A stretch of DNA of 64,000 nucleotides from Desulfobacteraceae bacterium (lineage in GTDB: Bacteria > Desulfobacterota > Desulfobacteria > Desulfobacterales > Desulfosalsimonadaceae), in contig JABZFM010000003.1 of assembly GCA_014237465.1 (NCBI GenBank), positions 1 through 64,000 on the forward strand, in the 5' to 3' direction. Of the stretch, positions 1 to 1,103 are shown in pieces (the stretch's first letter is position 1; each line of letters begins with the position of its first letter). The position numbers and the translations under genes are program-made. The notes under the pieces were generated by a model. It was given only the letters and a program-made list of their open reading frames with translations, searched no databases and was not told the DNA's origin.

Positions 1-144
1 TTTCTGTTCGTCGCGTCCGGGTTTTGCCTAAGGCTTCCTCCAGACCTTGCCTCGCGACAACGCCCTTGCCATCGGCTAACGGTTCCGACCACTTCGGCCC
101 GTAGAGGACTTCCACCTCCAAGATTCACGCCATGCCTGGCGCAC
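1..144 (-). mobile_element. 5' end of a group II intron, truncated by the window edge
   Basis: Read on the minus strand, the element begins with GTGCG at 144-140, the conserved 5' end of group II introns (GUGYG). It continues with a structured, GC-rich sequence whose blocks (GGAACCGTTAGCCGATGGCA at about 91-72, then a GGAGGAAGCC block near 40) resemble domain I of bacterial group II introns as I remember them. The splice point lies directly behind the T-run of the acsE terminator, which is the preferred target of bacterial class C introns. Only the first 144 bases are here. The rest of the ribozyme and any reverse transcriptase would lie to the left of the window, so class and activity are inferred. 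Confidence 0.65.
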
Positions 145-145
145 C

Positions 146-183
146 AAAAAAGGGCCGCACCCTGATACGCAGAGTGGGCCCTT
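146..183 (-). terminator. Rho-independent terminator of the acs cluster
   Basis: Perfect 7-bp stem (150-156 with 177-183, AAGGGCC/GGCCCTT), extended by further pairs after a bulge, and followed on the minus strand by six T residues (146-151). It sits about 30 bases behind the acsE stop codon. The group II intron begins two bases beyond the T-run. Confidence 0.8.
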
Positions 184-212
184 GGTCTTCACCTGATTAT
201 TCAGCTTTTATA

Positions 213-1103
213 TTATAACTCAAGCCATGAATCAGAATACAGGGTTCTGCCAAGAATAACGTCAACGGTCTTGACATAATCTACCAATTCTTTGGAAAGA
301 CTGCTGATGTCCGGTGCATTACCGTCCATGGTCGCAAGAACCACATCAACAATATCCTGACGTTTGCCTTTGGCAATATCCGTCAACTTGTCATCTAAAG
401 GATCTGAAATCACTGAGTACATGCCGTATCTTTCCAACATGACCATGTAAGTCGAATTCAGAATGGGACGCAGGTGTACCGGGGGACCATTTGAAATATT
501 GGATAGTCCGCAGGTGCTTTTTGCGCCCGGGGCAATGTCCTGGATCATTTTCTGAAATTCCAGCAGGCTGACACACTGCTGTTGCTGAATATTGACCGGC
601 GTCACGATGCCGTCCACCCAGATTCTTTCATTTTCAATGCCGGCTTCGTTGGCCGCATACAGAAGTTCCACGCACAGTGCGGCTCTTTCATTTTCATCTC
701 GCGGCAGTCCGTCCGGACCCCACATCAATGCGATAAAGTCCGCATTGTATTCAGCGGCCAGCGGAATCATTTTTTCATATCTTTCGGTTCGGCACATGAT
801 TGAGTTGATCAGCGGCGCTTTTTCTGTCGGCTTGTACACCTTGAGCCCGGCTTCAATCGCATCAATATTTGAGGTGTCAAGCACCAGGGGAATATCATCC
901 ACAACTTCCTGGACCGTCTGAATCACCCATGGCATTAATTCAATACCGTCTTTTTTGGCCGGTCCGAGGTTAATGTCAATATAGTCCATTCCTTTTTCTT
1001 TTTGAAAAAGGGCTTCTTCCTGGATTGGTTTGGGATCACGCGCTTTAAACGCACCACCAATCTTTTTGGACATGACATTTAAACTTTCACCAAGACATAA
1101 CAT
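213..1103 (-). CDS. acsE: Methyltetrahydrofolate:corrinoid/iron-sulfur protein methyltransferase
   Basis: Moves the methyl group of methyl-tetrahydrofolate to the cobalt of the corrinoid iron-sulfur protein (AcsCD), linking the methyl and carbonyl branches of the Wood-Ljungdahl pathway in the cytoplasm. The 296-residue protein is a single pterin-binding TIM barrel of the DHPS-like family. It shows DYIDINLGPAKKDG near residue 40, PLVLDTSN near 73 and STCGLSNISNGPP near 195, all typical of AcsE/MeTr. The ATG is preceded by GGAGG, about 8 bases upstream. It is the last gene of the acs cluster and is followed by a strong terminator. Family assignment is firm; the direction in vivo (acetate oxidation or CO2 fixation) cannot be told from sequence. 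Confidence 0.93.
   Translation of the reverse strand: MLCLGESLNVMSKKIGGAFKARDPKPIQEEALFQKEKGMDYIDINLGPAKKDGIELMPWVIQTVQEVVDDIPLVLDTSNIDAIEAGLKVYKPTEKAPLINSIMCRTERYEKMIPLAAEYNADFIALMWGPDGLPRDENERAALCVELLYAANEAGIENERIWVDGIVTPVNIQQQQCVSLLEFQKMIQDIAPGAKSTCGLSNISNGPPVHLRPILNSTYMVMLERYGMYSVISDPLDDKLTDIAKGKRQDIVDVVLATMDGNAPDISSLSKELVDYVKTVDVILGRTLYSDSWLEL

Follow-up and report, generated by a model that had tools for sequence, protein, structure and literature searches.

Group II introns begin with GUGYG and end in AY, and their domain VI carries a bulged branch-point A. Those of group IIC (bacterial class C) reportedly insert behind intrinsic terminators, a behavior credited to work by Robart et al. 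in 2007. One paper describes intrinsic terminators, or alternatively attC sites, as the places immediately 3' of which class C introns insert (PMC4424553), and another places bacterial-C introns mostly immediately 3' of a terminator and argues that they are rarely transcribed there (PMC8919778). Here, we describe what is in all probability a group IIC intron, probably ~1.9 kb long and equipped with an RT/maturase, that is oriented like acsE, directly follows the T-tract of the acsE terminator, lies before a DUF3786 gene, and is one of five recent insertions in its genome. Both the kind of intron and its targeting are known; somewhat less usual is only that a co-directional gene follows the acsE terminator at a short distance.

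The intron 5' part behind acsE

The 64,000-nt stretch of DNA that was analyzed (the window) comprises bases 1 to 64000 of contig C58, its base 1 being the first base of the contig. Read on the minus strand, the acsE ORF, which ends at 213, is followed by a hairpin (183 to 150), a run of six T (151 to 146), a single G (145), and the intron, which starts at 144 and, toward base 1, reads GTGCGCCAGGCATGG. The window thus holds the first 144 nt of the intron (1..144, minus strand, GTGCGCC...), and the remainder lies beyond the contig end; of the EBS1-IBS1 and EBS3-IBS3 pairings by which class C introns recognize their exons, EBS1 presumably falls outside these 144 nt. An Rfam search matched bases 61 to 1 (minus strand) to model positions 1 to 61 of the 170 in group-II-D1D4-3 (RF02001), with 48.5 bits against a gathering threshold of 32 and an E value of 1e-6; the match stops at the contig start.

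The gene upstream of the insertion, acsE (213..1103, minus strand), encodes the methyltetrahydrofolate:corrinoid/iron-sulfur protein methyltransferase (Pfam Pterin_bind, 51 bits, cut-off 25.5). Its product also matches NCBIfam NF040758 and NF005719, both under their cut-offs, and its neighbors are CdhD, CdhC/ACS, and Prismane/CODH genes. The intrinsic terminator of acsE, which served as the landing site (146..183, minus strand), contains a 14-bp hairpin; the minimum free energy of bases 190 to 145 is -22.8 kcal/mol (z -3.8), and 1 of 200 shuffles was equally good. Terminator-like sites at the 3' side of acsE were also listed by a pattern scan. The final base of the 5' exon (145..145, minus strand) is G at acsE and A in the remaining four copies of the intron.

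A first-pass annotation, made from the letters of the window, had proposed a group II intron directly behind the acs terminator in the orientation of the genes, and the RF02001 match, the hairpin with its six T, and the five copies described below bear this out. Its extent of 1 to 186 proved too long, however: the intron part runs from 144 to 1, and bases 186 to 145 are terminator and acsE 3' flank, outside the intron. It had also placed GTGCG two bases beyond the T-run; GTGCG does begin at the second base after the run, but just one base (G145) lies between.

Copies in the genome and a complete homologue

In the assembly of the host genome (5.09 Mb in 70 contigs), the intron 5' sequence occurs at five places, every one a contig end (C58, C43, C41, the start of C45, and the end of C2), and the five are 100% the same across the 134 nt visible in all. 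A domain V search with RF00029, in which 150 of 328 candidates were scored, returned at least seven matches, five of them of one type at 34.8 bits, under the gathering threshold of 40; the same model gives 39.0 and 45.3 bits in two homologues (L084 and L081, respectively). The 34.8-bit type is located at the ends of C1, C22, C29, C45, and C59. These five 3' ends show no differences over 137 nt and carry domains V and VI together with the last 19 to 22 codons of an intron-encoded protein (IEP), the longest (C29) encoding PIKWFEDIGLISLTNRYMTLTN followed by a stop.

Domains V and VI are predicted to fold into two hairpins (z -4.1), with a 2-nt bulge in domain V and a bulged A in domain VI, seven nucleotides from the end of the intron. 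The intron is bounded by GTGCG at its start and ...CTACTCGAT at its end, as delimited by the empty site described below. The lower stem of domain V holds one U/C mismatch at a place that is paired in the Desulfosarcina alkanivorans homologue; since all five copies have it in common, the copy that moved probably already had it. A separate pattern search of the genome contigs for domain V gave no match because the pattern was overly strict: even the domain V of D. alkanivorans departs from it at one fixed position. This null is no evidence of rarity.

The first-pass annotation had suggested looking beyond the contig end for domain V, the intron 3' end, and an RT/maturase gene. A 3' end that fits, complete with domains V and VI, is present on contig C59, and the RT/maturase gene was not found in the assembly. 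Indeed, the intron interior (domains II to IV and the RT) was found nowhere in it: RF01998 had no match among the 150 of 318 candidates scored, and a class C RT query yielded just 37% matches, to the RT of a different intron on C2 and C49. The RVT_1 matches in the genome were likewise set aside, as they belong to that different group II intron at the C2 and C49 starts and to a further RT on C21. At all five 5' ends, the contigs break 134 to 144 nt into the intron, as would fit a repeat exceeding the read length; five 5' and five 3' ends without a middle would then be the assembly trace of such a repeat, which also explains why the contig ends here.

Two other elements of this genome are recorded in their own right. 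The starts of C2 and C49 (L007 and L008) hold a second, different group II intron with a domain V of 40.3 bits, in two slightly diverged copies that share the same first base and whose RT is cut at the contig start. On C21, at 147359 to 147853 (L016:1240-2115, minus strand), there is a 291-aa reverse transcriptase ORF outside the introns, which is retron- or defence-like by look only.

A complete homologue is present in D. alkanivorans PL12 (NZ_AP021874.1, L084:856-2757). It is 1,902 nt long, and its identity to our intron is 86.9% in the first 144 nt and 85.6% in a 3'-end match of 145 nt. Rfam assigns it D1-D4 matches of 142.9 and 62 bits in addition to domain V. Its ORF at 1266 to 2681 encodes a 471-aa IEP, to whose C terminus the C29 peptide is the counterpart. 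This IEP contains RVT_1 and GIIM and no further Pfam domain at E 0.001, and it passes TIGR04416 with 399.5 bits (cut-off 300). The homologue's protein is an RT plus maturase without endonuclease; of a counterpart, our genome displays just the last 19 to 22 codons. Judging from this C-terminal remnant and from the D. alkanivorans homologue, an intact RT appears to be encoded in our genome as well.

With no interior found in the assembly, an internal deletion of the acsE copy is conceivable, and a dead or truncated remnant, with its ends kept and its interior lost or its RT broken, has precedents among relatives. In genomes G045 (L077) and G047 (L078; same order as the host genome), terminator-like hairpins precede 5' domains of this intron family, and domain V had no match in the 5,001-nt loci; these copies were dropped as full-length ones on this account and are probably fossil insertions. 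In G078, the intron measures just 1,336 nt, with an IEP that by eye is in pieces. Against a remnant at acsE stand the identity of both ends in five copies (134 and 137 nt), as expected of recent insertions, and the uniform contig breaks, which fit a repeat longer than the reads. We consider a remnant unlikely and retain the reading of a recent, full-length insertion. The first-pass annotation had held that occurrences of the same sequence without intron structure would speak against an intron; none was seen in our genome, where the five 5' ends all share one boundary and the five 3' ends another, whereas G045 and G047 do have a 5' half with no domain V match within 5 kb.

The empty acsE site and the DUF3786 gene

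On C59, the exon 3' of the intron opens with TTTAAATGGAGACAATTTTAATGGCACG and codes for a DUF3786 protein (Pfam, 193.5 bits; L013:863-1495). The longest frame has its start codon at exon base 6; comparison with relatives puts the start at base 21. We examined the acsE loci of the 29 best-scoring of 112 relatives with a match (L018 to L046). A DUF3786 gene lies 3' of acsE, on the same strand and 13 to 211 nt away, in 18 of the 29; among the 11 others, two have less than 200 nt readable. Since the C59 exon opens with the very gene that follows acsE in these 18 relatives, C59 is taken as the other half of the acsE copy. Neither intron end had a match at E 0.01 in the 29 acsE loci. Empty sites, with which the first-pass annotation had recommended comparison, are present in relatives in the form acsE-terminator-DUF3786. 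The joined flanks of C58 and C59 aligned to one of them (L020, genome G009) over bases 1 to 598 of 600, with 83% identity and 9 gap positions, and the junction itself is gap-free, T6-G-TTTAAATGGAGA facing T6-A-TTTAAATGGAGA. Thus, the intron inserted without duplication or loss of target bases.

This alignment also bears on whether the shared 144 nt might be some other terminator-linked repeat (an insertion sequence or a REP-like or attC-like element) and no intron at all. The window displays just those 144 nt, and insertion sequences typically show up as multicopy repeats where contigs end. An empty site lacking a target-site duplication argues the other way, as do the 5'-end match to an Rfam group II model, the presence of domain V in the 3' ends, and the full-length D. 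alkanivorans intron with its RT/maturase, which is 86 to 87% identical at both ends. Such a repeat is hardly credible, and a group IIC intron remains our reading.

The intron also links other contigs. Relatives have the flanks of C41 and C1 as neighbors at 7 loci, those of the C45 start and C22 at 2 loci, and those of C2 and the C45 end at 4 loci, and C43 is paired with C29 by elimination only. In the one relative aligned for each, the C41-C1 junction is unclean, with 70 nt of exon 2 unaligned; C45-C22 is unaligned on either side of the junction; and C2-C45 has a 14-nt gap located 9 nt inside exon 2. Pieces of the C22 exon have short matches elsewhere in two relatives (L023 and L096), beside acsE and beside the homologue of C43, and probably represent a dispersed repeat. 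Taken together, the five identically ended insertions and the empty acsE site imply, at the level of sequence, that the intron has been mobile.

Among the four sites paired through relatives, acsE alone has a co-directional next ORF, the longest next ORF on C1, on C22, and at the C45 end being convergent. In 8 of the 18 relatives with DUF3786 behind acsE, the last run of at least four T ends 13 to 24 nt before the DUF3786 start; in 4 others the spacing is masked by a T-run at the start codon, 2 have no T-run, and in 4 the distance is 34 to 162 nt. A short gap between T-run and start leaves little room for a promoter, and DUF3786 is therefore probably expressed by read-through or from a promoter within acsE or its terminator. 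The intron would place DUF3786 ~1.9 kb farther away. DUF3786 itself is an uncharacterized frequent neighbor of the Wood-Ljungdahl gene acsE, and it was absent from the acetyl-CoA synthase literature among the matches listed.

This arrangement raises the question of whether the intron was co-opted as a regulator of the acs locus that sets DUF3786 expression through splicing or an outward promoter. The co-directional site, with its next ORF so close behind the intron, and the probable read-through in those 8 relatives are in line with this. On the other hand, the intron is present in 0 of the 29 relatives' acsE loci and hence gives no sign of upkeep by selection; furthermore, a promoter scan listed no outward sigma-70-like promoter for the intron portion visible on L013 (137 nt), which leaves most of the intron out of view. 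Co-option is quite improbable, and a mobile intron that landed at a terminator is the reading we keep.

In D. alkanivorans, a TPP riboswitch (L084:694-802, 77.9 bits) with a terminator-like hairpin lies directly upstream of the intron, and a thiS-like ORF, called from its sequence, and then a thiG-like ORF follow 3' of it. The locus as a whole (L084:694-3818) is a class C intron set between a TPP riboswitch terminator and thiS/thiG-like ORFs. Given its place behind the riboswitch terminator, transcription of this intron should depend on the riboswitch being ON. Two cases, namely, the acs terminator before a co-directional DUF3786 gene and the TPP riboswitch terminator before a thiS-like gene, are behind a wider speculation: some class C introns of this group might occupy read-through paths, not dead ends, and be transcribed and spliced only upon terminator override, with mobility and downstream expression sharing one switch. 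Two cases are too few for a trend, and we regard the idea as rather unlikely. With a mobile intron separating a Wood-Ljungdahl operon from a frequent neighbor gene, the acsE site would allow one to measure how an intron affects read-through expression.

Terminator targeting and comparison with known group IIC introns

Each flank was scored by how many T its final 12 bases before the intron contain and by its best hairpin ending 4 to 16 nt ahead of the intron. A hairpin and a T-tract directly precede the intron in 5 of 5 copies in our genome, with hairpins of -22.2 (C58), -12.8 (C43), -21.9 (C41), -21.6 (C45), and -21.9 kcal/mol (C2) and T counts of 6, 9, 5, 8, and 7, respectively. As background, 88 of 4000 random window positions (2.2%) combined at least 5 T with a hairpin no weaker than -11.4 kcal/mol; this limit was chosen afterwards at the weakest homologue, and all our own copies reach -12.8 or better. 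The placement of our copies at terminators therefore exceeds chance, in agreement with the class C landing that the first-pass annotation had put forward, and the acsE insertion is a clean in silico example of terminator targeting with an empty site.

We extended the scoring to relatives. In a survey of 116 genomes, the 144 nt had 36 matches in 20 genomes, including our own. Outside our genome there are 31 matches, of which 13 reach back to base 1; we scored 9 of the 13 and left out 4, all from G075. Among the remaining 18, one (L050), whose start precedes its main match by 57 nt, was scored, and three (L061, L065, and L066) have starts guessed by motif; the motif revealed no intron start at the loci of 13, and one match had no locus. 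In all 10 scored survey flanks (the 9 plus L050, 3 of them from G075), the hairpin lies between -11.4 and -25.9 kcal/mol, and the T count is 6 to 10. The distant L061, L065, and L066, scored at their guessed starts, have a hairpin and a T count of just 3 to 4, and they count against a strict T-tract rule across the wider family. Moreover, searching named genomes with a DNA pattern that the 5' ends share led to five loci (L084 to L088), L087 being the same place as L049; the other 4 of 4 have a hairpin of -16.5 to -24.3 kcal/mol and 7 to 8 T.

The family is also seen elsewhere. In G075, the 5' end of a related intron occurs seven times, at most 11 bases from contig starts (C43, C70, C108, C129, C144, C292, and C293 of that assembly), and these copies probably reflect another burst of copying. 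Plasmid records with a match to the 5' 144 nt number 60, and the best 8 of the 60 span all 144 nt at 74.7 to 76.2% identity; 8 plasmid records have a best place with 95 to 99% identity to the 5' part, the match length not being given. The 3' end is matched in 38 plasmid records, the best 8 of which span half of it at 80.8%, most being annotated ltrA. Phage records had no match to the 5' 144 nt at E 1e-5.

By the route that these observations would suggest, the intron RNA and its RT would reverse-splice into DNA at the terminator motif, and the inserted intron would then be copied from a replication-fork primer, as reported for endonuclease-lacking class C introns. Read-through of the terminator would transcribe the intron, and splicing would restore an acsE-terminator-DUF3786 transcript, the predicted junction joining ...CCCTTTTTTG to TTTAAATGGAG...

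Among solved proteins, the closest to the D. alkanivorans IEP is the GsI-IIC RT (PDB 6ar1; 449 bits over residues 57 to 469), compared with 138 bits for LtrA, and our intron is compared with it via that homologue only. The 6ar1 protein comes from a group IIC intron of Geobacillus stearothermophilus. The D. alkanivorans intron resembles ours in being terminator-adjacent and differs from it in occupying a TPP riboswitch site and not acsE. Relative to group IIC introns in general, no difference in kind was found, our own domain V having the one mismatch. In common with them, our intron starts with GTGCG, ends in AT, has domains V and VI, and is inserted in sense orientation at a terminator T-tract, and an RT/maturase without endonuclease is encoded by its homologue; its insertion behind acsE fits class C targeting in full.
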